The notes: generated by a model not told the origin, from the letters alone. Positions 44,254 through 61,528 are shown, counted from the stretch's first letter. The stretch is 64,000 nucleotides of DNA from Myxococcaceae bacterium (GCA_016926755.1 JAFGNZ010000172.1:1-64000), one strand, 5' to 3'. Numbers and translations: made by a program.

Positions 44254-44434
44254 GGCGCTTGGGAGGGCAGGCCAGCGGTCGCGGCCTCGCAGGGCGGGGG
44301 GCCGACTGGAGGAGCCCGCTCGCTCCTCGGGCGGCCAGGGCGGATGCATGCCGTTCCGCCCCTGTGGGAGGAACTGTCGGCAAGGGCAGGCGTCACAGCG
44401 CGGTTGAAGGTTGCAGGACTTCTCCCGGACGGCC

Positions 44435-47155
44435 ATGCCGCGCATGCGATTCCACATCAAGCTGCTGCTCGCCTTCCTCGCCGTCCTCCTGCCGGTGATG
44501 GTGCTGCAGGGTGCGGACTTCCTGTCAGGCCTCCAGCGGACTCGGGAGACCATCCTGGAGGCACAAGGCCTGACGGCCCAGGCTGTCGCCATGCAGGTCG
44601 CCGAGTCCTTCGACGCCGCCGTCGATCTCGGTTGGGCCGTGGCCAATGATCCGACGGTCCAGCGCATGGACTCGCGCCAGCTGGACGCGCACCTGCAGCG
44701 GTTGCAGAAGAACAGCCCCCACTATGACGCCATCGGCGTCTATGACGCCCAGGGGATCAACCGCGGCTGGGGAGAGCCCCGCGCGCCGGCCGAGCCTCGG
44801 CTCCGGATCGCTGATCGCCCCTACTTCCAGAAGGTGATGGCCACCAACGCCCCGGTCATCTCCGAGCTCATCGAGCTGCGGCGGCCCATCCGCACCGCGG
44901 TCCTCGCCTCCGTCCCCATCCGCGATGCCCAGGGGCAGCCCGTGGGCGTCGTCAACGTGGTGATGCAGACGGACCTGCTGGAGCAGCGCTTCCTGAGCGC
45001 TCGGCTCCAGACAGGGCAGGCGATCCTGCTGGTGGATCCCCAGGGCCGGATGGCCTTCCATACGCGCTTCCCCAACCTCCCGTACGCGCAGAGCGACGAG
45101 CTCCTGGCATTCGCTCCCCTCCACGTAGCGCTGGCTGGCACCTCCGTGAAGCTCGATCGGTTCCACAGCCCGTTCGAGCAGGAGGCCTCCCTCGGCGCCT
45201 TCGTGCCGGTGCCCAGGCATGGGTGGGTCGTGGGGGTGACCATGCCTCAGCGCGTCGCCCTGGCTCCCGTATATGAGTGGCTGCGCGCCAGGCTCGCCAG
45301 CTTCCTCGGGCTCCTGCTGCTGTGCGCGCTGATCTCCGCGGTGCTGGCCCGCGTCCATGCCCGCCCGGTGCGACAGCTCCAGGCGCTGGCCCAGGCGCTG
45401 GGGCGAGGAAAGATGGACGAGCGGGTGCGCATCAAGACCGGCGACGAGCTGGAGGAGCTGGGCGCCGCCTTCAACGAGATGGCGGCCCATATCGCTCAGC
45501 GCGAGGCGGAGGTGGAGGCGCTGCGCTCGCAGGCCGAGCGTCACGCGCGCCAGCTCGACGCCGTCATCGCCAGCGTGCCGGATGCCATCATCCTCGCCAG
45601 CCCGGACGGCCGGCTCTTCGATGCCAACCCGGCGGGAGTCCGGCTGCTGGGGTTCCAGGCTCGCTCCGAGCTGGGCCAGCCGCTGGCCGAGTGCTTCCAG
45701 CGCTACGCGTTCCGGCATGTCGACGGGCGCCCCGTGGCGCCGGAGGAGCTGCCGCTCCAGCGCACCCTGGCCGGGGAGACCTTCACCGACGTGGAGCTGC
45801 GCCTGCGCACCCTGGCGGGGCAGGAGCGCCTGGTCAGCATCAACGGCGCTCCCGTCCGCAACTCCTCCGGGCGGATCATCCTCGGGGAGATCGTCGTCCA
45901 CGACATCACCGAGCGGAAGCAGGCCGAGCGGGAGCGCAGCCGGTTGCTGGAGCGCGAGCTGGCGATGTCCCGGATCAGCCAGGCCCTGGTCCGGGAGGTG
46001 GAGCTCGAGCGCATCGCCCACGTGGCCATCGAGCAGAGCCTCCACGCGCTGGGGGCCGATGCCGTGGGGCTGTGGCTGGCGAGGCCCGAGCACCAGCAGC
46101 TCACCCTGAGCGCCTCCCACGGCCTCGCGGCGAGGCTCCGAGAGGAGCTGCACCAGATCTCCTTCGAGGCGCCCCTGCTCACGGCCCAGGCGGCCCGGCT
46201 GGAGTCCCTGCAGGTCGTCGAGGACGTGCGGGCCGAGGGGACGCCGCTGCACGCCCGGAGGCTCGCCCTGGAGGAGGGGTTCCAGAGCATGGTGTCCATC
46301 CCGCTGCATGCGCGCGGGCACCTGGTGGGGGTGATGACCTGCATGTACACCCCGGGCCATTTCTCTCTGGGGGAGCTGGAGTTCCACACGACGGTGGGCC
46401 AGCTCTTCGCCATGGCCATCGAGAAGGCGCGCCTGTACCACGAGGTGCGCGAGGCGCTGCGGCTGCGCGAGGAGTTCATGTCCGCGGCGGCCCATGAGCT
46501 GCGCACGCCGGTCACCACCATCCAGATGTGGGCGGAGATCCTCAGCAAGATGGAGGCGAACTCCGTGCGCCAGCGCAAGGGGCTCACCGCGATCGCCCGG
46601 AACACGCGGCGGCTCGGGCAGCTGGTGGAGCACCTGTTCGCGGCCATCTGGATGGCCCCCGGGCTCCCGAAGATGGAGCGGGACAGGTTCGATCTGCAGG
46701 GGGTGGTGGAGGAGAAGGTGAGGAGCATCTCCCGCACCACGGAGCACCCGATCCACATCGAGGCCGCCGAGTCGCTCCGGGTGGACGGGGATCGCCAGCG
46801 CATGGGGGACGTGGTGGCGCACCTGCTGGAGAACGCCATCCGCTACTCGCCGCCCGGCGGCTCGATCGAGGTCGAGCTGCGGTGCTCGGAGCGCGACGCC
46901 GTGTTCTCCGTGAGGGACCACGGGCCGGGCATCCCGCCCGAGCGCCAGCCCCACGTCTTCGAGCCCCTCTACGAGCCGCTCCCGCCTGGGACCACGGGCT
47001 ACACGGGCGTGGTGGGGCTGGGGCTGCACCTGAGCTGGCAGATCATCGAGGCGCACAGGGGGCGCATCTGGCTGGAGAGCACCCCCGGTGAGGGCACGAA
47101 GTTCTGCTTCAGCATCCCGATGGGCGAGGCCGACAGCCTGCAATACGCCAGCTGA
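44435..47155 (+). CDS. Membrane sensor histidine kinase, Cache-HAMP-PAS-GAF-HisKA-HATPase
   Basis: About 906 residues from ATG 44435 (MPRMRFHIKLLLAFLAVLL); the ATG three codons on and a TTG at 44411 are alternatives, none with a strong ribosome site. Two membrane helices (~8-28 and ~285-305) enclose a periplasmic dCache-like sensor (RETILEAQGLTAQAV, RPYFQKVMATNAPVISE, VVNVVMQTDLL). HAMP follows (RPVRQLQALAQALGRG), then PAS (~365-490), GAF (~510-665), HisKA with SAAAHELRTPVTTIQ (H687) and an ATPase lobe with HLLENAIRYSPPGG, DHGPGIPPE and GLGLHLS. It stands 84 bp upstream of the macroglobulin operon on the same strand and might control it; that is only an inference. No response regulator is adjacent. 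Confidence 0.92.
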   Translation: MPRMRFHIKLLLAFLAVLLPVMVLQGADFLSGLQRTRETILEAQGLTAQAVAMQVAESFDAAVDLGWAVANDPTVQRMDSRQLDAHLQRLQKNSPHYDAIGVYDAQGINRGWGEPRAPAEPRLRIADRPYFQKVMATNAPVISELIELRRPIRTAVLASVPIRDAQGQPVGVVNVVMQTDLLEQRFLSARLQTGQAILLVDPQGRMAFHTRFPNLPYAQSDELLAFAPLHVALAGTSVKLDRFHSPFEQEASLGAFVPVPRHGWVVGVTMPQRVALAPVYEWLRARLASFLGLLLLCALISAVLARVHARPVRQLQALAQALGRGKMDERVRIKTGDELEELGAAFNEMAAHIAQREAEVEALRSQAERHARQLDAVIASVPDAIILASPDGRLFDANPAGVRLLGFQARSELGQPLAECFQRYAFRHVDGRPVAPEELPLQRTLAGETFTDVELRLRTLAGQERLVSINGAPVRNSSGRIILGEIVVHDITERKQAERERSRLLERELAMSRISQALVREVELERIAHVAIEQSLHALGADAVGLWLARPEHQQLTLSASHGLAARLREELHQISFEAPLLTAQAARLESLQVVEDVRAEGTPLHARRLALEEGFQSMVSIPLHARGHLVGVMTCMYTPGHFSLGELEFHTTVGQLFAMAIEKARLYHEVREALRLREEFMSAAAHELRTPVTTIQMWAEILSKMEANSVRQRKGLTAIARNTRRLGQLVEHLFAAIWMAPGLPKMERDRFDLQGVVEEKVRSISRTTEHPIHIEAAESLRVDGDRQRMGDVVAHLLENAIRYSPPGGSIEVELRCSERDAVFSVRDHGPGIPPERQPHVFEPLYEPLPPGTTGYTGVVGLGLHLSWQIIEAHRGRIWLESTPGEGTKFCFSIPMGEADSLQYAS

Positions 47156-47239: not shown

Positions 47240-48190
47240 ATGCTGCCTGTAATCCTGGCCCTCCTCCTTACCCAGTCCGGCAATCCTCGCCAGCAGGGCG
47301 TCCCCATCGGCACGGGCAAGACGCTGGCCAAGGTCACCCTCTCCGCCCCCACCGGCGGCTGGACGGTGGACCGGATGATGCGGGTGGAGGGCACCCTCAG
47401 CGACACCTCCATTGATCCGGTCGTCGTCTCCATCAACGGGGACCGCTACCTGATGCGCACCTACAACGGGCGCTTCAGCCGCAAGTTCCCCGCGGCCAGC
47501 GGCAAGAACATCGTCACCGTGATGGCCACCAACCAGGCCGGCACCGCCCGCGCCCAGGTGACGACGTACGCGCAGATCCCCCCCGTGCCCCTCAAGGCCA
47601 TCCTCACCAGCGACACGGAGGGCGTCTACACGGACCTCCACGTCTACGAGCCCACCGACACCAGCGTCACGAAGGAGGCGGACGGCCCGAGGCTGTACGG
47701 CTCCAAGATGGCGCACGTGTACTGGGCGGACACGGCCAGCCCCAGCGGAGGCACCTTCTTCCTCAACGAGCAGGGCGGCGACTTCGACCAGCCCGCTTAT
47801 GGCCCCTACCTCTATATCCACCGCGCGCCCCCCAAGGGCGTCTACCTCATCGCCACCAACTACTGGCCCAGCGGCGACAAGGCGCACACCGTGGCCACCC
47901 TCAACGTGGCGCTCTTCGAGGGCACCCCCGGGGAGGTGCGCCGCATGGTGCGCATCCCCCTGGCCACGCCGGGCACCACGCGCGTGCTCGCCTGGGTGAA
48001 CATCTTCGGGGACAACCTGGCCGAGGTGTACGTGCCCTCGCAGGATCCCGCGCCCAAGGGGCCCACCTGGCCCACGAACCTGGAGGAGGCCGCCAGCGCC
48101 GTCTCCTCCGGCGGCTCCGGAGACGAGGGCGGCTACGAGGGCGAGGGCGAGTACGGGGGCGAGGGTGACAGCTACGAGGGAGGAGACTGA
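47240..48190 (+). CDS. yfaP: DUF2135 protein (YfaP-like), first gene of macroglobulin operon
   Basis: A 316-residue secreted protein. ATG 47240 gives a short signal (MLPVILALLLTQSG); the upstream in-frame ATG lacks one. An Ig-like N-terminal domain (~35-120; VEGTLSDTSIDPVVVSINGD) precedes the DUF2135 domain (~130-270), recognised from YTDLHVYEPTDT, GGTFFLNEQGGDFDQPAYGP and PPKGVYLIATNYW. The C-terminus is acidic and Gly-rich (GEGEYGGEGDSYEGGD). In E. coli the homologue lies in the yfa cluster with the macroglobulin YfaS. Domain function is unknown; a periplasmic partner is likely. The next gene starts 11 bp after the stop. Confidence 0.85.
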   Translation: MLPVILALLLTQSGNPRQQGVPIGTGKTLAKVTLSAPTGGWTVDRMMRVEGTLSDTSIDPVVVSINGDRYLMRTYNGRFSRKFPAASGKNIVTVMATNQAGTARAQVTTYAQIPPVPLKAILTSDTEGVYTDLHVYEPTDTSVTKEADGPRLYGSKMAHVYWADTASPSGGTFFLNEQGGDFDQPAYGPYLYIHRAPPKGVYLIATNYWPSGDKAHTVATLNVALFEGTPGEVRRMVRIPLATPGTTRVLAWVNIFGDNLAEVYVPSQDPAPKGPTWPTNLEEAASAVSSGGSGDEGGYEGEGEYGGEGDSYEGGD

Positions 48191-48201
48191 CCGTTCCGCC
48201 C

Positions 48202-48822
48202 ATGCTGCCCCTGTCGCTCACGCTGGCGCTCGTCGCCTCCACGCCCCAGGCCTCCTCCGCCGCGCTCGAGACGCCCACTGCGTCCGCGGGGCGAGGGGCC
48301 CGTGATGTGCTGCTGCGCCGCGAGCTGGCCCACGTGGCGCTGGCGCAGCTCCGCAAGTTCGATCCGCTGTGGCACCCGGATCAACGCGACTGCGCGGGCC
48401 TGGTGCGCTTTGCCTACCGCAGCGCGCACAAGCGCTTCTTCCCCGAGCGGCTCGCCCAGCCCCTGTGGCTCGATGCGCAGGGCCGCGCCTCGGAGTTCGC
48501 CGACGCGGAGACGCTGCTCACGCGCAGCTTCGTGCCGCTGGGCCGCGACGGGGCCACCCTCGAGGCGCTGCGCACCGGAGACCTCGTGGCCTTCCGCCAG
48601 GAGCAGGACGCGGGCCCCGTCTTCCACCTCATGCTGGTGGTGCGTCCGGAGGACAAGGCGCACGCGCCAGCGCGCGTCGTCTACCACCCGGGCGAGAAGG
48701 GGGCCGCGGTGCGCACCGGCGTGCTGCACCGGCTCGCCACCGAGGCGCCGCTCGAGTGGCGCCCCATCCCCCAGAACACCGCCTTCCTCGGCTTCTTCCG
48801 CTTCAAGGAGTGGATGCAATGA
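48202..48822 (+). CDS. yfaT: DUF1175 protein (YfaT-like) with NlpC/P60-type active-site pattern
   Basis: A 206-residue secreted protein; signal ends near SSAALE. Family assignment comes from the operon context and from the sequence. The pattern is that of NlpC/P60 cysteine peptidases: Cys64 in RDCAGLVRFAYR, then LRTGDLVAF, then His142 in FHLMLVV, and a third polar residue, probably the His in YHPGEKG. NlpC/P60 enzymes cut peptidoglycan peptides or similar bonds. If active, it would bring a wall hydrolase into the macroglobulin complex. The spacing Cys-His (78 residues) is a little longer than in classical members. Its stop overlaps the next start as ATGA. Confidence 0.82.
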   Translation: MLPLSLTLALVASTPQASSAALETPTASAGRGARDVLLRRELAHVALAQLRKFDPLWHPDQRDCAGLVRFAYRSAHKRFFPERLAQPLWLDAQGRASEFADAETLLTRSFVPLGRDGATLEALRTGDLVAFRQEQDAGPVFHLMLVVRPEDKAHAPARVVYHPGEKGAAVRTGVLHRLATEAPLEWRPIPQNTAFLGFFRFKEWMQ

Positions 48823-50450
48823 GCTCATCCGAAACCCCGCCGGGCACGCCTCCGCCCTCGGAGGCTCCGCCCCCGGCCACGCCCCCACCGGGCAAGAGCG
48901 CCTCCAAGGCCATCCTCGTCGCGCTCGTCACCGTGCTGGTGAGCGGCGCGGTGGTGGGCGCCTTCGTGCTCGGTCGCCGCAGCGCCGGCCCCGGTGAGAC
49001 AGGCCGCCCGGCGGAACCCGGTCAGGGCCCCGCGGGCGTTCCCAGCGCGGGCGCTACGGTGGAGGGCATGCCCTCGCCGCCCTCTCCCCAGCCCTTGAGC
49101 ATTCCCTCCCAGGGCCAGCCGGCTGTCTGGGTGGATGTGTACGCGCCCGCGAAGGTGCGCGGCGCGCTCGTGGAGAACCGCTGGTTGCAGGAGCAGCTGA
49201 AGAAGCCGCTGGGCCAGGGCTTCGCCAGCTCCTGGGCCGCCTTCTTCGGCTCCACCGGCGAGGACCTGAATGCCTCCTTCAAGGGCGCGGTGTTCGACGT
49301 GGTGGCCGGGCAGCTCTTGGACTCGCCGTTCCGCGCGCTGTGGTTCGTCGGAGGCGATGACTCGAACGCCCCCGCCTTCATCGTCCCGGACCCCGACATC
49401 AAGGCCGTTGGCGCCTACGAGGCCATGGAGCGGGTGGCCAACCGCGGCGGCTTCACCGCGGACCGCTGCCCGGAAGGGGCCAGCCCCTCCATCACGCCTC
49501 CCGAGGGTGGCTTCAAGATCGCACGGTGGCTCGTCGCCGAGGCGTCCCTCTACGCGGCGGAGGCCGAGGACCGGATCGTGGTGGCACGGCAGCCCTCCAT
49601 GGTGCTGCGCGGCCTGTGCGCGGAGCTGGTGAAGCTGAAGGCGCCCGCGGGCGTGGACCTGGAGGTGGGCTTCAACACCGAGGTGCTCGGGCGCGAGCTG
49701 GCGTTCCTCACGCACGCGCTGGGGCTGGAGAGTGGCACCCGGCTGCAGTTCGCCGCGGAGGGCGCCCGGCTGGTGGCGCGCGGCATCGCCGGCTCGCTCG
49801 CGGACAAGGTGCGCCTGGACGCCGCGCCGCTCTCGGAGGAGCTGCTCAAGCTGGTGCCCGCGGACACGCCGGTGCTGCTCGCGCTCCAGCTCAAGCTGCC
49901 CGAGTCGCTCGAGGGCGCGAAGGTGAAGGCGTACTGGGCGGGCGAGGAGGCGGGGCCGGTGCGCACGCGGCAGATCGCCCTGATCTGGACGCCCCGCGGC
50001 GACGCGGACCTGAGCCACGAGTTCGCCCTGCTCTGGGGCCGCGAGGAGGACGGGCCCGCGCTCCAGGACATGTTCAACGGCGGCAACCCGCTGGTGAGGG
50101 CCACGCTGTGCAAGCACCAGGTGCTGGCCTCGGAGGCGGGCGTGCTCCAGCGGCTGCAGAAGGCCTGCGAGGGCAGGAGCCCCAACCTGCTCAACGCGGC
50201 GGGCCCGGTGGTGGCGGGCCTGCGCGCCCCGGGCTCGGTGACGCTGGGGGTGAACACGGGCCAGCTCCTCAGCCAGCTCCTGGCGGACGGCTACTGGTCC
50301 GAGCAGCAGCTGGGCACCAGGGCCCCGGTGCCGGCCGCGGCACCGCCGGAGATCGAGGCCGCCCGGCGGGATGTGGAGACGCTGCCCTACGTAGGCCTGC
50401 GCGGCACGGTGCAGGGTGATTCGCTGGTCCCTGGAGGGTTCGGTTCATGA
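48819..50450 (+). CDS. yfaA: DUF2138 protein (YfaA-like), membrane anchored
   Basis: A 543-residue protein starting at ATG 48819, coupled to the previous gene by a 4-bp ATGA overlap; the longer frame upstream is a shadow. A Pro-rich cytoplasmic N-terminus (~1-30) leads to one transmembrane helix (KAILVALVTVLVSGAVVGAFVLG), so the bulk is periplasmic. Recognisable DUF2138 segments are FKGAVFDVVAGQLLDSPFRALWFVGGD, YAAEAEDRIVVARQPS and LVPADTPVLLALQL. No catalytic motif is seen. It probably acts as the inner-membrane anchor or scaffold of the macroglobulin complex, by analogy with the membrane complex reported for the Pseudomonas MagD operon. The stop overlaps the next start as ATGA. Confidence 0.82.
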   Translation: MSSSETPPGTPPPSEAPPPATPPPGKSASKAILVALVTVLVSGAVVGAFVLGRRSAGPGETGRPAEPGQGPAGVPSAGATVEGMPSPPSPQPLSIPSQGQPAVWVDVYAPAKVRGALVENRWLQEQLKKPLGQGFASSWAAFFGSTGEDLNASFKGAVFDVVAGQLLDSPFRALWFVGGDDSNAPAFIVPDPDIKAVGAYEAMERVANRGGFTADRCPEGASPSITPPEGGFKIARWLVAEASLYAAEAEDRIVVARQPSMVLRGLCAELVKLKAPAGVDLEVGFNTEVLGRELAFLTHALGLESGTRLQFAAEGARLVARGIAGSLADKVRLDAAPLSEELLKLVPADTPVLLALQLKLPESLEGAKVKAYWAGEEAGPVRTRQIALIWTPRGDADLSHEFALLWGREEDGPALQDMFNGGNPLVRATLCKHQVLASEAGVLQRLQKACEGRSPNLLNAAGPVVAGLRAPGSVTLGVNTGQLLSQLLADGYWSEQQLGTRAPVPAAAPPEIEAARRDVETLPYVGLRGTVQGDSLVPGGFGS

Positions 50451-53400
50451 GGTACTCCTCGCGCTTTTCCCTGCTGGCCGCGCTGACGCTGGCCGGCGTG
50501 GCGGCGGCCAAGCCGCTCTACATCACCGTGCCCCGCGCCTACGGCACCCAGGAGCCGGTGGCGGTGGACGTGGCCTTCAGCAGCAAGGGCCCGGTGGAGC
50601 TGCGGGTGCTCAAGCCGGACAGGCTGGAGGCGTTCATCGACGCGCAGGGCGACATGCGCCGCGCGTACGAGGAGCCGCCGGTGCTGAAGAACCCCGGGCG
50701 CGCGCTCAGCCGCGGCCTCAACGCGGTGCGCGTGCCCAGCACCTACCTGCTGTACTCCTTCAGCACGGAGTTCCGTGACGCCGTCTCCCCGGCGCTGCCG
50801 GAGCGCGGCTCCGAGGACACGCCGCCCACGCTCAACCAGATGGCCGAGGGGCCGGACAAGCTGATCGGCGTGCCGCCCGGCTTCTCCGTGGTGCGCAGCC
50901 AGTGGCTCAACCTGGATCTGGGCGGCGCGGGCTCGGACTTCAGCGTGCCGGGCTTCCCCACGTGGGGCGGCCACGGCTTCCAGGAGCGCCGCGTGATGCT
51001 GGCGCCGCTGCCGGCGGGCACCTACGTGCTCCAGCTCGTCCAGGGCAAGGTGGAGGGCCAGGTGGTGCTCGTCGTCACCGATCTCACCGTGCAGCTCAAG
51101 CAGACGGACGGGCAGGTGCTGGTGCGCGTGGCGGGCCGGGACCAGAAGCCGCGCGCCGGCGCCCAGGTGAAGGTGTTCCTGCCCAATGGCGCGGGGCCCT
51201 CGGGCCAGACGGACGAGAAGGGCGAGGTGACGCTCGCGGTGGCGGAGCCGCGCCTGCTCGCCACCGCCACGGTGGGCGGGGACACGGCGCTGGTGGACAC
51301 GGACTTCTACTCCTCGCTCGCGGTGGCGCCGGACGTCTTCATCTACAGCGATCGGCCCATCTACAAGCCGGGCGACACGGTGAGGTTCCGCGGCCTGCTG
51401 CGCCAGCCGGAGACCTACCTGGCGCGCCTGTTCACCCCGCGCAAGAAGGAGGTGGTGGTGAAGCTGGAGTCCGCCGAGGGCCGCGAGGTGAAGACGCGCG
51501 TCGGGGTGGACGAGTTCGGCAGCTTCCACGGCACCCTGGCCGTGCCGGAGGATCTGGGCACCGGCGTGCTGCGCGTGTCGGCCTCGGTGGATGATCAGGC
51601 GCACCAGGGCGAGGCGCGCGTGCAGGACTACGTGAAGCCCACCTTCTACCTGGAGCTCACCCCGGAGAAGGAGAACATCGTCCCCGGCGAGGCGCTGAAG
51701 GCCACGGTGCGGGCGCGGCGCTACGCGGGCGGCGTGCCCGAGGGCGCGCGCTACGAGGTGTTCCTCTACCGCTCGCTGCTGGACGCGCCTGCCTGGGTGG
51801 ATGACGCGGGCAAGGGTGGCGGGGGCAGCGCGGTGACGTACGGCAGCGCCTCCAGCACCGAGGGCAAGCTGAGCGTCCCCCAGCGCCTCTACTCCTCCGT
51901 CGCCGAGCGCGGCGCGGGCGAGGATCCGTGGTCCAGCGCGCCGCGGTTCGACGAGAACGGCGAGGCCGTCATCGAGATCAACGTGCCCCCGCTGGCCCCC
52001 GGCGAGGAGCGGCTGCCGTACCGCTACACGCTCACCGTGCGCGCGCGGGATGATCAGGAGACGTTCGCCAACGCGACCGCCGCCTTCTTCCTGTCGGAGG
52101 TGGAGGTGTTCGGCGCGGGGAGCTTCTCCGACGCGGTGGTGAAGAAGGGCGGGGAGGCGACGCTGGCCGTGCGCGCCACCACGCTCTCCGGCAAGCCCTA
52201 CGGCGCCACGCCGGCCGAGGTGGAGTTCGTGCTGCGCAAGGCGGACGGCAGCGAGAAGAGCCTGGGCACCCAGAGCTTCACCACGGGCGCCGATGGCATC
52301 CACCGCGAGAAGGTGCCCACGGCGGAGGTGGGCACGGTGCTGGCGCGCATCACGGTGAAGGACAAGAACGGCAAGGCCTGGTCGGGCGAGGAGTCCATGC
52401 TCGTCATCGGCGGCAGCGACGAGCCGGTGGCGCGGGTGGCCAACCTGACGCTGGCCTCGCTCTCCGGCACGCTGTCGCCGGGCGACAGGGCGCAGCTGGT
52501 GGGCCTCTTCCCCGAGGGGTGGGGCCCGGAGGGCAGGGATGCGGGCCCGGTGTGGCTCACCTTCTCCGGCGCGGGCCTCTACGGCACGCAGGTGCTGGAG
52601 CTGGAGGGCCGCACGCTGGTGCACACCTTCCCGGTGGAGAAGCGCTACGGCAGCGCGGTGTACCTCTCCGTGGCGTACCCGACGAGCTCCGGGCGCTGGG
52701 AGGAGCGCACGGTGTCCTTCCGCGTCGTCCCGGCCGAGCGCACCCTCTCGGTGAAGCTGGAGCCGCGCCGCGCGGAGGCCGCCCCGCTCACCGAGCAGGT
52801 CATCGACTTGCGGGTGACGGACCACGAGGGCAACGGCCTCGTCTCCCAGGTCTCCGTGGGCGTGGTGGACAAGGCCGTCTACGCCATCCAGAGCGAGTTC
52901 CGCCCCAAGGTGCTGGACTTCTTCTACCCGCCGGCGCGCAACAACGTGTCCAACTTCTACTCCGCCGAGTTCCAGGGCTACGGCTACGGCGAGGCGCTGG
53001 CGCGCAAGCTGGCGGGGCTGCCGGACCACGCGTTCGCCTCCATCAAGCCGCCCACCCGCAAGGCGAAGGACGAGGAGCGGGACACGGCCTTCTGGCAGCC
53101 CAACGTGGTGACGGACCGGGACGGGCGCGCCACGGTGCGCTTCAAGCTGCCCTCCAACCAGACGCTGTGGGTGGTGACGGCGGTGGCGGCGGACACCTCG
53201 GGTCGCTTTGGCGAGGGCACCTCGGAGTTCGCCACCCGCGGCGGGCTCAACCTGTACGCGGCGCTGCCGCAGTTCCTCCGCGCGGGGGACGAGGCGCTCG
53301 CCTCGGTGCGCCTGTCCGCGGGCGAGGCCTCCAAGGGCAGCCAGGTGCTCAACGTGCGGCTCGCCTCCGCGGGCGCGCTCCAGGCCAACCAGGCCGAGCA

Positions 53401-55153
53401 GAAGATCGAGCTGGGCCAGGGCGGCGAGCAGATCCTCCCCCTGCAGCTCAAGGCCACCGGCGCTGGCTCCGCCGAGCTGATGGTGGACGTGACGGGCGGC
53501 CGGGAGGCGCTGAAGGATCGCCGCGCGGTGCCGGTGCTGCCCGCGGCCCTGGAGGAGCCGGTGAAGGTGTCCGCCTGGGGCGGCGGGGAGCTGTCGCTGC
53601 AGGCGCCCGGCTCGGCCACGCTGGCGGACGTGGAGCTGGTGCTCCAGCCCTCGCTGGTGGACGCGGCGCTCACCAACGTGCGCGAGCTGCTCACCTACCC
53701 GTACGGCTGCCTGGAGCAGCTCGTCTCCACCACCGTGCCCAACGTGGCGCTCTACCAGACGCTGAAGAAGGCGGACGCGCTGGAGAAGCTGGACCCGGAC
53801 AGCCAGGCGCTGCTGGCCGAGGCGCGCAGCCGCTCCGTGCAGGGCACCGCGCGCATCCTCGCCCTGGCGGTGAAGGGCGGCGGCTTCACCTGGTTTGGCG
53901 GCTACAGCACGCCGGATCTGCCCATGACGCTCATCGCCCTGGACGGGCTGGCCTACGCGGCGGAGGCGGGCCTGGTGGACGCCAATGACGCGCGGATGAC
54001 GGAGGCCGCGCGCTGGCTGGAGGCGCAGGAGAACCTGCCCTTCGAGTACGACGCGACGCGCGCCTACGTGCTGTCGCGGCTGTACGGCGAGCGCCAGGCG
54101 GCGCGGGTGCGCGCCCTCATCGATCGCGCGACGGCGGGGGACCTCTACCCGCTGGCGCTCGCGGTGCTGGCCGCGGAGAAGGCGGGGGTGATGAAGGAGC
54201 CCGCGCTGCAGGCCAAGGTGGAAGCGCTGGTGACGGCCAGCAACGAGGGCTTCGTCCGGCTGGCGAGCATGAACACGGCGCCCGAGTCCGAGGCCTTCTT
54301 CCACTACCCGCTGCGGCGCGTGGGCCTCACCGCGCTGCTGGCGCACGCGGCCTCCTTCGGGAAGCTGGACGTGGACAAGGCGCGCCGGCGGCTGCTGGAG
54401 CTGCTCACCCAGCCGGGCCTCTCCACCTTCGATCGGAGCACCGCGCTGCTGCACTCGCTGTGGCTGGTGGAGCGGGACGCCAAGGCCTTCAAGAAGCTGC
54501 CGCCGCCAGAGGTGAAGGGCGCCCAGGGCCCGGTGAGCTTCGCGCCCCGAGGCATGGGCCTGGTGGCCACGCTGGAGCCGGGCACGCGCTCGGTGAGCGT
54601 GGCCTCCTTCGAGGGCGTGGCCACGCTGCGCGCCACCTCCCTCACGCCGCTGCAGGACGTGCAGCCGCGCGCCGAGGGCATGAGCATCGAGCGCCGGTAC
54701 TGGGTGCTGCGCGACAATGGCAAGGTGCCGCTGGCCTCCGGGGAGCCCGTCTCCCAGGGCGAGGAGGTGTTCGTCGAGCTCGTCATCGACGCGCGCGGCG
54801 ACAACAAGGCGCGCTCGGCGTACTACGTGGTGGAGGACGCGGTGCCCGCCGGCTTCGTGCCGCTCATCGAGGACAAGGAGTTCCGGGGGCCGCCGCACTC
54901 GCTGCCTCTGGCGCCCGAGGCCCTCAAGCGGCGCGTGCTCACCCCGGAGCGGGCGACGTTCTTCTTCGAGGAGCCGGCGTGGTGGGGCGACAGCCCGCGC
55001 TCGACGGGCTACGTGATGCGGGCCCAGTTCGCGGGCTCGTTCACCGCGCCGCCCGCCTCCATCGAGGACATGTACGTCACCAGCATCCGCGGGCGGACGA
55101 AGTCGGACGTGCTGGCGGTGAAGCCTTCCCAGAAGCCGCGAGGCGACTGGTAG
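50447..55153 (+). CDS. yfaS: Bacterial alpha-2-macroglobulin (YfaS type) with intact thioester motif
   Basis: A 1,568-residue periplasmic protein with GGAGGG about 9 bp before ATG 50447 and a Sec signal ending at LAGVAAAKP, without lipobox. Macroglobulin signatures in order: an MG-domain stretch, FIYSDRPIYKPGDTVRFRG (~300), the A2M core AFWQPNVVTDRDGRATVRF (~880) and LPSNQTLWVVTAVA, the thioester YGCLEQ with Cys1088, and the helical thioester domain after it (FTWFGGYSTPDLPMTLIALD). These proteins trap proteases that cut their bait region; the thioester links them covalently. As recalled, many YfaS-type copies lack the Cys-x-Glu-Gln motif, so its presence is notable. Position in the operon and 4-bp overlap support joint synthesis with DUF2138. 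Confidence 0.93.
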   Translation: MRYSSRFSLLAALTLAGVAAAKPLYITVPRAYGTQEPVAVDVAFSSKGPVELRVLKPDRLEAFIDAQGDMRRAYEEPPVLKNPGRALSRGLNAVRVPSTYLLYSFSTEFRDAVSPALPERGSEDTPPTLNQMAEGPDKLIGVPPGFSVVRSQWLNLDLGGAGSDFSVPGFPTWGGHGFQERRVMLAPLPAGTYVLQLVQGKVEGQVVLVVTDLTVQLKQTDGQVLVRVAGRDQKPRAGAQVKVFLPNGAGPSGQTDEKGEVTLAVAEPRLLATATVGGDTALVDTDFYSSLAVAPDVFIYSDRPIYKPGDTVRFRGLLRQPETYLARLFTPRKKEVVVKLESAEGREVKTRVGVDEFGSFHGTLAVPEDLGTGVLRVSASVDDQAHQGEARVQDYVKPTFYLELTPEKENIVPGEALKATVRARRYAGGVPEGARYEVFLYRSLLDAPAWVDDAGKGGGGSAVTYGSASSTEGKLSVPQRLYSSVAERGAGEDPWSSAPRFDENGEAVIEINVPPLAPGEERLPYRYTLTVRARDDQETFANATAAFFLSEVEVFGAGSFSDAVVKKGGEATLAVRATTLSGKPYGATPAEVEFVLRKADGSEKSLGTQSFTTGADGIHREKVPTAEVGTVLARITVKDKNGKAWSGEESMLVIGGSDEPVARVANLTLASLSGTLSPGDRAQLVGLFPEGWGPEGRDAGPVWLTFSGAGLYGTQVLELEGRTLVHTFPVEKRYGSAVYLSVAYPTSSGRWEERTVSFRVVPAERTLSVKLEPRRAEAAPLTEQVIDLRVTDHEGNGLVSQVSVGVVDKAVYAIQSEFRPKVLDFFYPPARNNVSNFYSAEFQGYGYGEALARKLAGLPDHAFASIKPPTRKAKDEERDTAFWQPNVVTDRDGRATVRFKLPSNQTLWVVTAVAADTSGRFGEGTSEFATRGGLNLYAALPQFLRAGDEALASVRLSAGEASKGSQVLNVRLASAGALQANQAEQKIELGQGGEQILPLQLKATGAGSAELMVDVTGGREALKDRRAVPVLPAALEEPVKVSAWGGGELSLQAPGSATLADVELVLQPSLVDAALTNVRELLTYPYGCLEQLVSTTVPNVALYQTLKKADALEKLDPDSQALLAEARSRSVQGTARILALAVKGGGFTWFGGYSTPDLPMTLIALDGLAYAAEAGLVDANDARMTEAARWLEAQENLPFEYDATRAYVLSRLYGERQAARVRALIDRATAGDLYPLALAVLAAEKAGVMKEPALQAKVEALVTASNEGFVRLASMNTAPESEAFFHYPLRRVGLTALLAHAASFGKLDVDKARRRLLELLTQPGLSTFDRSTALLHSLWLVERDAKAFKKLPPPEVKGAQGPVSFAPRGMGLVATLEPGTRSVSVASFEGVATLRATSLTPLQDVQPRAEGMSIERRYWVLRDNGKVPLASGEPVSQGEEVFVELVIDARGDNKARSAYYVVEDAVPAGFVPLIEDKEFRGPPHSLPLAPEALKRRVLTPERATFFFEEPAWWGDSPRSTGYVMRAQFAGSFTAPPASIEDMYVTSIRGRTKSDVLAVKPSQKPRGDW

Positions 55154-55156
55154 CGC

Positions 55157-57409
55157 ATGGGGTGGGCCGCTGTGACGGCCGCGCTGCTGGCGGCCACCCC
55201 GGTGTTCCACACGCAGGGCGACGTGACGCCCGAGCAGGCCCTGCGCGCCGAGGCGGAGACAGCCTGGAAGGAGCTGGAGGCGCGGTACGTGGCCGAGGCC
55301 GGCGGGAGCCCCGCGCAGGCCCCGGCGCCCATCCGCCTCCAGCGCGGCGTGGCGCTGTCTGCGCAGCGTAACGCCCAGAGCCGGCCCGGCCTGGTGGAGC
55401 TGCGGCAGAGCACCCCAGGGGTGCTGGACGCGCGCCTGCGCCTGGCCCTGCGGCACGAGCTGGCGCACCAACTCCTGTGGTGGGCCTGCCCGGCGGCCTC
55501 CGAGGATCGGCTCTTCCACGAGGCCTTCGCGCTGGTGGTGAGCGGCGAGCTGCCCGAGTGGCGCGCGGGGCCCTACCAGTCGCTCAGCGCGGCGGCCGCG
55601 GAGCTGGGGCGCTCACAGGCGGTGGACACGCCTCGGGCGCGGCGGGCGCTGGCGCGCATCCTCGGGGAGGGCCGGGGCTTTCCCCAGGCGCTCTCGCGCC
55701 GGCTGCGGCAGTGCCAGGATGGGGCACGGTGGACGGTGCCGCTCTCCGTTGACGAGCTGGCGGACGTGACGGTGAGGGCGGCCACCGCCGCCGCGGTGGT
55801 GGTGAGCCGCCACTCGGGCGAGGTGCTCCTCTCCGAGGGAGAGGTCCAGCGCGCGCTGCCCTACGGCTCCACGCTGAAGCCCTTCATCCTCGCCGGGAGC
55901 CCCGCGCCGCCGCCGGTGCTGGCGCCGCGCGCGGGCGTGCCGGAGTGGGCGTGCGGCGAGCGGCTGCCGAAGCAGGTGGACGGGCGCACGGCGCTGCTGC
56001 GCTCGTGCAACGGGTACTTCCTGGACTGGGAGGCGCGGGGCGGTGCCGCGGCGGACTTCGGCCCGTGGGGCGCGGTGCTGGCCGCGGTGGGGCTGACGGG
56101 GAAGCCGGCGGACATGGCGGACGCCATCGGCCTGCGCTCCACGCTGGCGCTCTCCCCGTGGGGCATGGCGCAGGCGTATCGGCTGCTGGCGGAGGCGCGC
56201 CCGGAGCTCGTCGAGCTGATGAAGGACAACGCCGCGCGAGGCACGCTGTCGGAGCTCCCGGCCTCGCCGGCGTACGCGGGCGTGGCCACCAAGACGGGCA
56301 CGGTGAGGGACGCGGCGAGCCGGCCGCAGTACGGGTGGATCGTCGCGGTGGACGAGGACGTGGTGGCGGTGGTGATGCGGCCCGGGAAGATGCCGCGCAG
56401 CTTCGCGGGCGAGGTGCCGAAGGTGCTGGCGCGGGCCCGCCAGCGCCCGGGCCTGGAGGCGGCGCGGGTGCAGGTGCTGGGGCTGGCGTCGGCCTCGGAG
56501 GTGGAGGCAGGCTGCCGAGGGGCGGGCTTCGCGGTGGAGCAGGGCGTGCCGCGCGTGGCGCCCCAGGGCTTCTCTCGGCTGAGGGAGCTGGTGGCGCGCG
56601 GCCCCGCGCTCTGCCTGGGGAGCCCCTGGCGGGTGCGTGTCCCGGGGCTGCCCTCGGAGGGGCGGGACTATGCGGGGAGCTTCTCGTGGTCCTCTCCGCC
56701 GCCGTACCGGCCGCCGCCCGGCGTGCCCACCACCGAGCGCGAGCGCAGCGCGCGGCGGGGCTCGGACTTCCTCTTCCGCACCACGCGCCTGCAGTACACG
56801 GCGGGCGTAGTGGCCGCCGAGGACGCCTCGCTGAAAGGAGAGGCGCGGGTAGCGCTGGCGCGCGTGGTGGCGCACAACGAGCGCAACGCCCAGAGCCGAC
56901 ATGGGGACCGCCCCCTCTGCGACACGACGCACTGCCAGGCCTTCCGCGGCACCGTGCGCGTGCGGCCGGAGGAGGAGAAGGCGCTGGGGCTTTCACCGCT
57001 CCGTTGGAGGCAGTGGCTGCTCTTCTCCCAGGGCGGCGAGGAGCCCTGGCGCCAGGTGCGCCCTCGGGCGCGGGTGGAGGGGCTGCTGGGCCAGGGGCTG
57101 GCGGCGCTGCGCTTCGAGGCGGGGCGGGTCTCCTTTGTCCGTGCGCAGCAGGAGGCCGGGGCGACGTTCGACACCACCGAGTCCCTGCCGTGTGAGGTGC
57201 TGCGCTCGGCGCTGAAGCTCCCGTCCTGCCCGCGCGTGGCCTCCTTCGACGGCGCGGACCTCGTCTTCGAGGGGCGGGGCCGGGGCCACGGCGAGGGGCT
57301 GGACGTGGAGGCCGCGAAGGCCAGCGGCCTGCGCAGCGAGGAGCTCCTCGAGCGCGCCTACGGCGCCGAGCGCTCGCGCGGCAGCTCCACGGTGAAGCAG
57401 GCGCCCTGA
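55157..57409 (+). CDS. yfaQ: YfaQ-like (DUF2300) multidomain protein: HEXXH, PBP-like triad and SpoIID-type motif
   Basis: A 750-residue secreted protein starting 3 bp after the macroglobulin stop. Three enzyme-like parts can be read. Residues ~95-125: HELAH (His100, Glu101, His104) with Glu122 18 residues on, the gluzincin zinc pattern. Residues ~235-385: the serine acyl-enzyme triad of penicillin-binding proteins, SxxK at Ser238-Lys241 in YGSTLKPF, SxN at Ser283-Asn285 in SCNGYF, and KTG at 379-381. Residues ~555-690: a SpoIID-like domain with GVVAAEDASLKGEARVAL and CDTTHC at 588-593, then GRGRGHGEGLD near the end. In E. coli the lipoprotein macroglobulin pairs with the transpeptidase PbpC; this protein may play that part for YfaS. 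Its last 52 bp overlap the convergent kinase gene. Confidence 0.82.
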   Translation: MGWAAVTAALLAATPVFHTQGDVTPEQALRAEAETAWKELEARYVAEAGGSPAQAPAPIRLQRGVALSAQRNAQSRPGLVELRQSTPGVLDARLRLALRHELAHQLLWWACPAASEDRLFHEAFALVVSGELPEWRAGPYQSLSAAAAELGRSQAVDTPRARRALARILGEGRGFPQALSRRLRQCQDGARWTVPLSVDELADVTVRAATAAAVVVSRHSGEVLLSEGEVQRALPYGSTLKPFILAGSPAPPPVLAPRAGVPEWACGERLPKQVDGRTALLRSCNGYFLDWEARGGAAADFGPWGAVLAAVGLTGKPADMADAIGLRSTLALSPWGMAQAYRLLAEARPELVELMKDNAARGTLSELPASPAYAGVATKTGTVRDAASRPQYGWIVAVDEDVVAVVMRPGKMPRSFAGEVPKVLARARQRPGLEAARVQVLGLASASEVEAGCRGAGFAVEQGVPRVAPQGFSRLRELVARGPALCLGSPWRVRVPGLPSEGRDYAGSFSWSSPPPYRPPPGVPTTERERSARRGSDFLFRTTRLQYTAGVVAAEDASLKGEARVALARVVAHNERNAQSRHGDRPLCDTTHCQAFRGTVRVRPEEEKALGLSPLRWRQWLLFSQGGEEPWRQVRPRARVEGLLGQGLAALRFEAGRVSFVRAQQEAGATFDTTESLPCEVLRSALKLPSCPRVASFDGADLVFEGRGRGHGEGLDVEAAKASGLRSEELLERAYGAERSRGSSTVKQAP

Positions 57410-59589
57410 TCGAGCTGGCTCTGGACGCGGAGGGTGCCGCCCAGGGCCTCCACGATGGTCCGCGTGATGTAGAGCCCCAGCCCCAGTCCTCCGTAGTTCC
57501 GCCCGGACACGGCGCGCTCGAACCGCTCGAAGATGCGCGCCTGGTCCTCGGGCGCGATGCCGATGCCCTGATCCTTCACGGTGAGCGTCACGCGCTCGGA
57601 GCGGGCCTCCAGCCGGACCTGGATGGGCTTGCCGGCGCCGTACTTGATGGCGTTCGTCAGCAGGTTCTCCACGATCTGCTCCAGCCGCATGCGGTCCGAG
57701 CTGCCCGGCACCGCCTCGGGGACTTCCACCGTGAGCAGGGACTGCGCCTTGGCGGCCTCGGGCTCCAGCCGTGCGGCCACCTCCCGGACCACGGCGGCGA
57801 AGTCCACCGGCTCCCAGTAGAGCTTCATCTGCCCGGAGCTGATCCGCGACACGTCCAGCAGATCCCCGATCAGGTCCGACAGCCGCTTGAGCTGCTTGCG
57901 CCCCGCCTCCACGTGCGCGCGGACCTTCAGCGCGAAGGGCGAGTCCGGCTGGGCCGCCGCCTCGCGGGCGAGCGTCTGGAGCTTCAGGCTCAAGGGCGTC
58001 AGCGGCGTCTTCAGCTCATGGCTGGCGACGGACAGGAACTCGTCACGCGCCTGGACAGCCTGGCGCAGCTCCTGGGCGAGCACCTCCGCCTCCTGGCGCG
58101 CCCGCACCTGCTCGGTGACCTCGAAGGCGAAGAGCATCACTCCGTCCACCTTCCCCTCCGGGTTCCTGCGGGGCTGGCAGACGAAGTTCCAGACCCTCTC
58201 CTCGACGTGCCCGGTGGCGTAGGCGATCGGGATGAGGACCTCTCTGCCGAACTGGGGCCGCTCGCTCACGAAGGCGCTGTCGAGCATCGCCACGATGTCC
58301 GGTGACAGGTCGGGCAGGGCCTCCAGGATGGGCCTGCCGAGCAGCTCCCGGTGGCCCATCAGCTCCTGGAAGGCGGAGTTGGTGAACTCGAAGACGAGCT
58401 GGCGCCCACGCAGGATGAAGATCAGGGCGGGCGCCTGCATGAAGAGCTCACGGAGATAGGTGCGCTGGGCCTCCGCCTCGGCATGGGCCTCCTGCTCGCG
58501 CGCCAGGAACCGGGCCCGCTCCGCCTCGCTGGCCTCGGCGCGCTGCCGGGCGCTGAGCTGGGACCGGGCGATGGCGAACATCAGGAGGCTGAGCAGCAGG
58601 CCCATCATTCCGATGACGGGCACCCAGGGCGTCAGCAAGGTCCGCTCGAAGGCGCGCGACGAGGTGAAGACCAGGGCCCACGGCCGCTCGGCCACCTCCA
58701 GCGGCAGGGTGCTGGTGAAGCGCGGCGCCTGGGGGCGCTCTTCCTCGGGGGAGGCCGAGTCGTAGAGCAGCTGCTCCGGCCGCGCCTCCATGCCGTCGTA
58801 GACGCGGAGGGAGACCTGCAGCTGGCTCGCGTGGGGGAAGATGCCCTCGAACAGCTCCCTCGCCCGGAAGGCGCTGTAGACGAACCCCTCCAGCCGTTGT
58901 CGGCGCTCCGCCTCCGTGAGCGGGAGGGCGCTGCCCTGGTACACGGGCACGTACAGCAGAAACCCCGCCTGGGCGGGCCCATCGTGAAGGCCGAGCTTGC
59001 CCGAGAGGGAGGGCTCGCCGGACAGCCAGGCCCGCTCCATCGCCTCCCGGCGGATGGGCTCCGTGAACATGTCGTAGCCCAACAACTCGCGGTTCCGCGC
59101 ATCCTGGGGCTGCAGGTAGATGATGGCGTGGTACTCCTCGCGGGGCTCCTCGGGCCAGATGCGGAAGGACGGCACACCGTTCGCGCGGATCCGCTCGCTC
59201 CAGGCCTCCTTCTGGCTCGCGGGGATGCGCTGGCTGAAGCCGAGCCCCTGGACGCCCGGATCGTACCGCTCCAGATCGAGCCGCTCGACGTAGAGGCGGA
59301 ACTCCTCGGCGGTGACGAGCTCGCTGGCGGTGAAGAAGCCCGCGGCACCTCGCAGCAGGGTGATGTCCGCGTCCAGGTGGCCGTGGATCCGATCCCGCAT
59401 CAACTGGATCCGACTGTCGAACCGGGCGGTGTCCCGGCTCCGGGCGCTCACGAAGAAGAAGGCCGTGCTGCCGGCCGTCAGCAGGAGCGAGGCGGCGAGC
59501 ACGGCGAGCGGCGCCAGCGCGGAGCGGTTGGAGGAGAGGGAAGGGGCCACGTTCAGGGAGCGCGAGAGTCGAAAGAGTCCAGATAGCAC
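57358..59589 (-). CDS. Membrane sensor histidine kinase, CHASE-PAS-HisKA-HATPase
   Basis: A 743-residue kinase starting at GTG 59589. Two membrane helices (~27-49 and ~315-340) enclose a periplasmic CHASE domain, recognised from FTASELVTAEEFRLYV, GVQGLGFSQRIP, YHAIIYLQPQ and FLLYVPVYQG. A PAS domain (~370-490) ends in FEVTEQVRA. HisKA has SVASHELKTPLTPLS with H524; the ATPase lobe has NLLTNAIKYG, DQGIGIAPED and GGLGLGLYITR. CHASE domains sense small molecules such as cytokinin-like adenines or short peptides. No response regulator gene is adjacent. Its 3' end overlaps the yfaQ-like gene tail to tail by 52 bp, so antisense effects between both transcripts are possible. Confidence 0.92.
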   Translation of the reverse strand: MLSGLFRLSRSLNVAPSLSSNRSALAPLAVLAASLLLTAGSTAFFFVSARSRDTARFDSRIQLMRDRIHGHLDADITLLRGAAGFFTASELVTAEEFRLYVERLDLERYDPGVQGLGFSQRIPASQKEAWSERIRANGVPSFRIWPEEPREEYHAIIYLQPQDARNRELLGYDMFTEPIRREAMERAWLSGEPSLSGKLGLHDGPAQAGFLLYVPVYQGSALPLTEAERRQRLEGFVYSAFRARELFEGIFPHASQLQVSLRVYDGMEARPEQLLYDSASPEEERPQAPRFTSTLPLEVAERPWALVFTSSRAFERTLLTPWVPVIGMMGLLLSLLMFAIARSQLSARQRAEASEAERARFLAREQEAHAEAEAQRTYLRELFMQAPALIFILRGRQLVFEFTNSAFQELMGHRELLGRPILEALPDLSPDIVAMLDSAFVSERPQFGREVLIPIAYATGHVEERVWNFVCQPRRNPEGKVDGVMLFAFEVTEQVRARQEAEVLAQELRQAVQARDEFLSVASHELKTPLTPLSLKLQTLAREAAAQPDSPFALKVRAHVEAGRKQLKRLSDLIGDLLDVSRISSGQMKLYWEPVDFAAVVREVAARLEPEAAKAQSLLTVEVPEAVPGSSDRMRLEQIVENLLTNAIKYGAGKPIQVRLEARSERVTLTVKDQGIGIAPEDQARIFERFERAVSGRNYGGLGLGLYITRTIVEALGGTLRVQSQLDQGACFTVELPRERSAP

Positions 59590-60781: not shown

Positions 60782-61528
60782 GTGTTCGAGCTGGAGGGGA
60801 TATCCAAGCGGTTCGGCGCCACGCAGGCGCTGCGGCCCATGGACCTGCGGCTGGCGCCGGGGCGCACCACCGTGCTGATCGGCCCGAGCGGGTGTGGCAA
60901 GTCCACCCTGCTGCGGCTGATGAACGGGCTGCTGCGCCCGGACAGCGGCCGGGTGCTCTTCGACGGCCAGCCGCTGCCGTCGGAGGAGGCGGCGGTGCTC
61001 GCGGTGCGCCAGCGCATGGGCTACGCGCTCCAGGGGGGCGGCCTCTTTCCGCACCTCACCGCGGGGCAGAACGTGGACCTCATGGCCCGCTACCTGCGGT
61101 GGCCCGAGGCGCGGATCCGCGCCCGGCTGGAGGCGCTGGTGGAGCTGACGCGCTTCCCGGGGGAGGCGCTGGGGCGGTTCCCCGCGGAGCTCTCCGGCGG
61201 CCAGCGCCAGCGGGTGGGGCTCATGCGCGCGCTGATGCTGGAGCCGGACGTGCTGCTGCTCGACGAGCCGCTGGGGGCGCTGGATCCGATGGTGCGCTCC
61301 GAGCTGCAGGCGGATCTGCGCGCCATCTTCGCGCGGCTGGGCAAGACGGTGGTGCTCGTCACGCATGACCTGGCGGAGGCGGCCTTCCTCGGCCAGCACG
61401 TCGTGCTGCTGCGCGATGGGGGCGTGGTGCAGGAGGGGACGCTCGCCGAGCTGGAGGCGCGCCCCGCCGAGGCGTTCGTCACCCGCTTCATCCAGGCGCA
61501 GCGGCGGCCGGTGGAGGGGAGCGCGTGA
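60782..61528 (+). CDS. Osmoprotectant-type ABC transporter ATP-binding protein (OpuCA/ProV-like)
   Basis: A 248-residue ATPase from GTG 60782 (FELEGISKRFGATQAL); the longer frame overlaps the previous gene. Motifs: Walker A GPSGCGKSTLLRLM, Q-loop YALQGGGLFPHLT, signature LSGGQRQRVGLMRAL, Walker B VLLLDEPLGALDP, H-loop LVTHDLAEAAFLG. DPMVRSELQADL and the ALQ-GGLFPH form are typical for the glycine-betaine/choline importer group. There are no C-terminal CBS domains, unlike OpuCA/OpuAA. The stop overlaps the GTG start of the fused permease gene as GTGA. Confidence 0.92.
   Translation: MFELEGISKRFGATQALRPMDLRLAPGRTTVLIGPSGCGKSTLLRLMNGLLRPDSGRVLFDGQPLPSEEAAVLAVRQRMGYALQGGGLFPHLTAGQNVDLMARYLRWPEARIRARLEALVELTRFPGEALGRFPAELSGGQRQRVGLMRALMLEPDVLLLDEPLGALDPMVRSELQADLRAIFARLGKTVVLVTHDLAEAAFLGQHVVLLRDGGVVQEGTLAELEARPAEAFVTRFIQAQRRPVEGSA

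Follow-up and report, generated by a model that had tools for sequence, protein, structure and literature searches.

A 64,000-nt stretch of DNA from a member of the Myxococcaceae (GCA_016926755.1 JAFGNZ010000172.1:1-64000; hereafter the window) carries, at positions 47240-57409 of the plus strand, five genes (numbered 1–5 in order), which almost certainly constitute an operon of the Mag/Yfa type with the modules described below. Its fourth gene encodes an alpha-2-macroglobulin with an intact thioester motif, and its fifth a YfaQ-type partner composed of three modules: HExxH, penicillin-binding protein (PBP)-like and SpoIID-like. Both the presence of a thioester in a "type II" operon and the composition of the YfaQ-type partner from three modules appear to be new; neither the thioester nor the HExxH module was included in the preliminary description of this DNA. 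Text searches of 5.39 million papers found no mention of DUF2300, the Pfam family within E. coli YfaQ, and SpoIID together with a macroglobulin in a single, unrelated paper.

The operon and its thioester macroglobulin

As given in the preliminary description, the five genes are separated (from gene 1 to gene 5) by 11, -4, -4 and 3 bp. The same order and strand recurred in 21 of the 21 further window-type Myxococcota loci opened, except that a few contigs or fetched regions end within genes 4 or 5 and that one locus (L040) has its macroglobulin split into two open reading frames (ORFs). The GC content at third codon positions (GC3) is 0.93-0.98 in all five genes versus 0.715 in a long antisense ORF, which supports the plus-strand reading. 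A chance set of ORFs was ruled out by GC3 and conservation.

The product of gene 4 (50447-55153), of ~165 kDa, contains MG2, bait region, A2M, TED and bMG10 domains, all above the Pfam cut-off. Its thioester motif CLEQ (Cys1088; 53708-53719, plus strand) is kept in all window-type loci covering the site and also in other phyla. Bacterial macroglobulins have been divided into type I, with CXEQ and encoded next to pbpC, and type II, encoded in the mag/yfa operon and lacking CXEQ (PMC5764988). Since gene 4 lies in a type II neighbourhood and reads GCLEQ, i.e. has the CXEQ of type I and not its absence, as in type II, the window operon represents a thioester variant of the Mag/Yfa operon rather than a textbook type II system.

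In an alignment of the macroglobulins of DUF1175-linked loci, CxEQ was present in every row covering the site, except those of Escherichia, Citrobacter and L062 (a mis-hit whose protein is no macroglobulin). In a quickly built tree of 38 rows, P. aeruginosa not being among them, the Escherichia and Citrobacter macroglobulins form one side of a branch with 99% support, while their sister lineage (G266, G591) retains GCVEQ. The Escherichia and Citrobacter rows were obtained from plasmids, and the gamma-proteobacterial sample does not cover the Pseudomonas mag genes. Thioesters were seen in Mag/Yfa operons of Myxococcota, Acidobacteriota, Methylococcaceae, Spirochaetota and another gamma-proteobacterial lineage, and "no thioester" is therefore a mark of one branch rather than of the operon type as a whole.

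The YfaQ-type protein and the other partners

Gene 5 (55157-57409) was modelled with AlphaFold2 (predicted local distance difference test score, pLDDT, 84.9), and its modules extend over residues ~90-130 (HExxH), ~200-430 (PBP-like) and ~500-737 (SpoIID-like), all motifs lying on the plus strand. These are: (i) HELAH (55454-55468) with Glu122 (55520-55522), a metalloprotease-like set whose H100, E101, H104 and E122 are invariant in 19 sequences, and in which the motif and the glutamate occupy successive helices of the model (92-110 and 118-129), an arrangement of the gluzincin type; (ii) STLK (55868-55879), SCN (56003-56011) and KTGT (56291-56302), i.e. the SxxK, SxN and KTG motifs of penicillin-binding transpeptidases (span 55868-56302), invariant or conservatively changed in the same 19 sequences and placed on a penicillin-binding fold, as Foldseek paired the model with PBPs of classes A and B and with class D beta-lactamases (best E 4e-7); and (iii) Glu555 (56819-56821), H-x5-C-x3-H-C (56900-56935) and GHGEGL (57284-57301), i.e. 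the catalytic glutamate, metal ligands and GHGxG motif of SpoIID (span 56819-57301). Glu555 and H582-x5-C588-x3-H592-C593 align with E101 and H134/C140/H145/C146 of C. difficile SpoIID, in which E101, C140 and H145 are needed for in vitro activity (PMC6221140). Peptidase_MA_2 and SprT-like were matched in gene 5 homologues at sub-threshold level only; the HExxH module is probably a protease, perhaps one that acts on the trap itself.

No Pfam family, including DUF2300, was above the cut-off in gene 5 itself, and its domain calls are based on homologues and profile comparison in place of a direct Pfam match. Homologues from the same position in Acidobacteriota and Archangium pass Pfam for Transpeptidase (6e-8 to 2e-47) and SpoIID (3e-16 to 2e-23), and the Archangium homologue matches solved SpoIID (5e-19) and PBP2 (7e-18). 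Aligning window profiles with homologue-group profiles gave probabilities of 70-98% (PBP part) and 97-99.9% (SpoIID part), and of 77-97% for HExxH in the groups that have it. When the PDB was searched blind by profile, SpoIID and PenA/PBP2 fell on the correct segments, below threshold. Among all ORFs of at least 380 amino acids (aa) in 61 other loci, at least three of the six motifs were found only in YfaQ-type proteins and, in one case, in a transpeptidase-like ORF, with one such ORF per locus. With motifs conserved across phyla, a PBP fold match and homologues passing Pfam, the PBP-like and SpoIID-like calls of the preliminary description were confirmed; motif loss in close homologues, which it had named as evidence against its view, was looked for and the motifs proved to be kept.

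Gene 2 (48202-48822) encodes a DUF1175/MagC-like protein of the NlpC/P60 type (Pfam DUF1175, 101.8 bits, cut-off 27, 5.1e-29). The single strong match of its structure model (pLDDT 91) in the PDB is P. aeruginosa MagC (7bk8; fold E 6e-9), and the profile comparison with 7bk8 gave 4.8e-45. The candidate catalytic Cys64 lies in DCAGL (48388-48402), whose D63, C64, A65 and G66 do not vary among 28 sequences, E. coli YfaT being one of them, and the candidate rest of the triad comprises His142 (48625-48627; invariant in this set) and His162 (48685-48687; conserved in at least 90%), all on the plus strand. A Cys-His-polar triad thus stands on a papain-like fold, in line with the NlpC/P60-like motif call made earlier. 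This nature of gene 2 was already known, because DUF1175 is the MagC family, and earlier work describes MagC as an NlpC/P60-like component of the Mag complex interacting with peptidoglycan (FEBS Lett 2021, as cited in PMC10318531). With MagB and the complex also published (PMC5764988), the partners were wrongly described at first as essentially undescribed. In a 2023 survey, DUF1175 is listed as inactive and MagC is so reported (PMC10318531); with its conserved triad, gene 2 may or may not be active.

The reported inactivity of MagC, which is described as peptidoglycan-binding, and the absence of SxN, KTG and SpoIID metal ligands from E. coli YfaQ (which keeps SxxK and the SpoIID glutamate) would be expected if the wall modules were pseudo-enzymes, i.e. 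binding platforms that fix the complex to peptidoglycan and are no longer catalytic. We consider this unlikely for the window type, in which 19-28 sequences show no more than conservative changes in any catalytic motif, a constancy that pure binding does not need.

Gene 1 (47240-48190), with a Glucodextran_B-type Ig domain, DUF2135 (25.1 bits, Pfam cut-off 22) and a Gly/Glu-rich tail, is by its sequence a genuine YfaP relative, its profile matching the E. coli YfaP group with 97.9% probability (E 3.5e-13). Gene 3 (48819-50450) is the positional counterpart of YfaA/MagB. A Pfam search with it gave nothing; it has one N-terminal transmembrane segment (48909-48974), as in MagB, and is homologous to the same-position gene of Methylococcaceae operons (profile 98.5%, E 4e-15). 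Its identity with YfaA/DUF2138 was rejected at the sequence level (hhalign profile-profile probability 2.5%, no Pfam match), while in transmembrane topology, size and position it agrees with a YfaA-type partner. In Methylococcaceae and relatives (L092-L109), DUF2135 and DUF1175 are encoded by a single fused gene, with a product of ~510-640 aa, which hints that the two act together. The yfaP, yfaT, yfaA, yfaS and yfaQ content put forward in the preliminary description therefore holds for YfaP, DUF1175 and the macroglobulin, but is positional only for yfaA and lacks a DUF2300 match for gene 5. Among the Pfam profiles proposed there, DUF2135 and DUF1175 were found, DUF2138 and DUF2300 were not, and Transpeptidase and SpoIID remained below the cut-off in gene 5.

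The window type and Methylococcaceae carry the HExxH module at the N-terminus, and Acidobacteriota at the C-terminus. Profiles of the latter two groups match in the transpeptidase plus SpoIID block (97.4%) and in the HExxH block (93.1%) with the order exchanged, and the window HELAH aligns with the C-terminal HExxH of the Acidobacteriota homologues. E. coli YfaQ has HEYLH inside DUF2300. When aligned directly with gene 5, it matches in the SxxK region alone (73.6%; SpoIID 1.6%, HExxH 0.5%), and its link to gene 5 is therefore weaker, passing through Acidobacteriota intermediates (SpoIID 87.6%) and motifs. In another gamma-proteobacterial order (L151, L162 and L163, from G266, G592 and G591, respectively), the YfaQ-type gene comprises 163-174 codons with the HEYLH part only, and GCVEQ is kept in the two readable macroglobulins of these reduced operons. 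Two Archangium-type genomes (G062 and G092) have a second, distant DUF1175-macroglobulin operon (L056 and L059), which encodes a YfaQ-type protein with clear Transpeptidase and SpoIID domains and without HExxH. Since, within the tree, the thioester is missing only in the enterobacterial lineage and the YfaQ motifs are eroded there too, this lineage looks reduced: by its motifs, the Escherichia/Citrobacter branch looks eroded and the window operon fully equipped.

The survival of HExxH in the reduced gamma-proteobacterial operons, beside the GCVEQ thioester in the two readable cases, raises the question of whether this module is the core of the YfaQ-type partner, cleaving or maturing the macroglobulin, with the wall modules secondary. 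When magE, its counterpart by synteny, is deleted in P. aeruginosa, MagD changes both in quantity and in processing, and HExxH is on this ground a candidate for a maturation protease. Against this, the authors of that work attribute the effect to signal-peptide processing, it is magB on which the 100-kDa form of MagD depends, MagE would correspond to YfaQ/DUF2300 from gene order only (anchored by magC, which is DUF1175), and the Archangium homologues have no HExxH; a primarily trap-arming role is thus quite improbable.

A possible trap-and-mend mechanism

We give an even chance to the whole of a mechanism in which the operon would encode a periplasmic, wall-bound and membrane-tethered trap with its own wall-processing partner. 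Gene 3 would tether the complex to the inner membrane and DUF1175 (gene 2) would hold it on peptidoglycan. A protease entering the periplasm would cut the bait region of gene 4, which would close on the protease and form a bond with it by way of its CLEQ thioester. The SpoIID-like module of gene 5 would trim damaged glycan and the PBP-like module would re-crosslink or process stem peptides, with DUF1175, if active, helping these modules, so that the breach would be contained and mended at one place. The gene content and order, the folds and the intact catalytic and thioester motifs are observed here. Complex formation, the MagC-peptidoglycan interaction and protection against peptidoglycan-targeting effectors come from work on P. 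aeruginosa. We infer every catalytic activity, the order of action, repair (rather than space-making) as the purpose, and the role of HExxH.

This mechanism is supported by the constant gene order, the intact thioester, the PBP fold match and Pfam-positive homologues of gene 5, its retained SpoIID residues, the MagC identity of gene 2 and the fact that the same genome also pairs a type I macroglobulin with PBP1c. The trap and wall-repair picture, drawn already in the preliminary description, agrees with a 2025 finding on P. aeruginosa, whose mag operon protects against VgrG3 and, with limited effect, against Tae1, both peptidoglycan-targeting effectors of the type VI secretion system; no protection was seen against other effector classes (PMC12663445). 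Several points weigh against it: Pfam Transpeptidase reached 17.1 bits (cut-off 22.1) in the isolated PBP segment of gene 5, and SpoIID 16.4 bits (cut-off 23) in the whole protein; MagC has been reported inactive, as noted above; MagE was not found in the stable Mag complex and was regarded as cytoplasmic; and a transpeptidase without a glycosyltransferase is unable to make new glycan.

The lack of a glycan-polymerising domain in gene 5, the size of the macroglobulin and the nature of SpoIID as a lytic enzyme acting after an amidase (PMC6221140) would also suit space-making, in which the SpoIID-, NlpC/P60- and PBP-like modules open the wall locally to install the giant macroglobulin complex, a task that dedicated lytic enzymes perform when flagella and secretion systems are built. 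This explanation is distinctly unlikely, as a transpeptidase-like module would be an odd opening tool, the reduced operons retain the macroglobulin yet drop the wall modules, and protection against peptidoglycan-cutting effectors is not predicted by it. Extending the trap-and-mend mechanism to the whole operon family, Mag/Yfa operons might ancestrally be self-contained machines defending the wall against injected wall-cutters, with a covalent trap and a three-activity partner (a trap-arming or trap-clearing metalloprotease, a transpeptidase and a SpoIID-type lytic transglycosylase), of which the enterobacterial, and perhaps the Pseudomonas, version would be a degenerate descendant; we put this forward tentatively and consider it rather unlikely.

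Distribution, surroundings and comparison with known systems

The window is part of a 9.6-Mb assembly, which its relatives mark as that of a myxobacterium. Of 195 genomes sampled from this phylum (Myxococcota), 87 carry DUF1175, and the nearest named DUF1175 protein to gene 2 is that of Hyalangium versicolor (89%). The operon is also present in Methylococcaceae, Acidobacteriota and Spirochaetota, which does not support the specific link to predation suggested in the preliminary description; a predator-specific system was rejected, because methanotrophs and Acidobacteriota carry the operon. A plasmid search with gene 5 gave no match, i.e. no window-type operon on plasmids. A Myxococcus-like copy of the operon (DUF1175 81% identity) occurs in a record labelled Comamonas sp. 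KCTC 72670 (L067; BNCN01000008.1), and the label therefore looks wrong.

In the window, the operon lies between two sensor kinases, one on each side: directly before gene 1, in the same orientation, a dCache/HAMP/PAS/GAF hybrid histidine kinase (44411-47155), and after gene 5 a convergent CHASE-domain histidine kinase on the minus strand (57358-59589), whose 3' end overlaps that of gene 5 by 52 bp (57358-57409). No sigma-70 promoters or terminators of the operon were detected beyond the shuffled-sequence level. At 61525-63039, a single ORF joins an OpuAC substrate-binding domain to an ABC permease domain.

The window operon has in common with P. aeruginosa mag and E. coli yfa the macroglobulin, DUF1175 (MagC/YfaT), DUF2135 (YfaP) and the YfaQ-type partner, and differs from these type II operons by its thioester; MagD, which has none, still traps a protease, and at the inner membrane it joins MagA, MagB and MagF in complexes (PMC5764988). 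Gene 2 shares the fold and family of MagC 7bk8 at 28% identity and, unlike canonical DUF1175, has no long insertion between its motifs. Gene 3 is transmembrane-anchored like MagB and of similar size (PMC5764988), whereas compared with yfa it has no detectable DUF2138 similarity. The gene order is P-T-A-S-Q here and A-T-S-Q-P in the mag and yfa operons, and gene 5, in contrast to E. coli YfaQ, keeps SxxK/SxN/KTG and the SpoIID motifs and bears HExxH at the other end. Compared with C. difficile SpoIID (PDB 4rwr/5i1t/5txu), the catalytic glutamate, H-x5-C-x3/4-H-C and GHGxG stand at matching positions, but here in one module of a three-module protein and with no sporulation setting. Resolved into HExxH, PBP-like and SpoIID-like parts, the YfaQ-type partner names candidate enzymes, and exact residues, for mag-type protection.

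The same genome carries a type I pair on another contig (C350), consisting of a GCIEQ macroglobulin followed by PBP1c (641 bits, cut-off 494). A VIT-domain (inter-alpha-trypsin-inhibitor-like) gene lies near this pair (L154:3-2726, minus strand), and a third macroglobulin, with CTEQ, is located on contig C312. Like type I yfhM-pbpC, for whose macroglobulin and PBP1c pairing trap-plus-repair was first proposed (PMC5764988), the window operon encodes a thioester macroglobulin together with a penicillin-binding-fold protein; it differs in having neither PBP1c nor a glycosyltransferase, and gene 4 has no lipobox. PBP1c beside type I and gene 5 here suggest that a protein of the penicillin-binding fold is a working partner in both of the bacterial macroglobulin systems.

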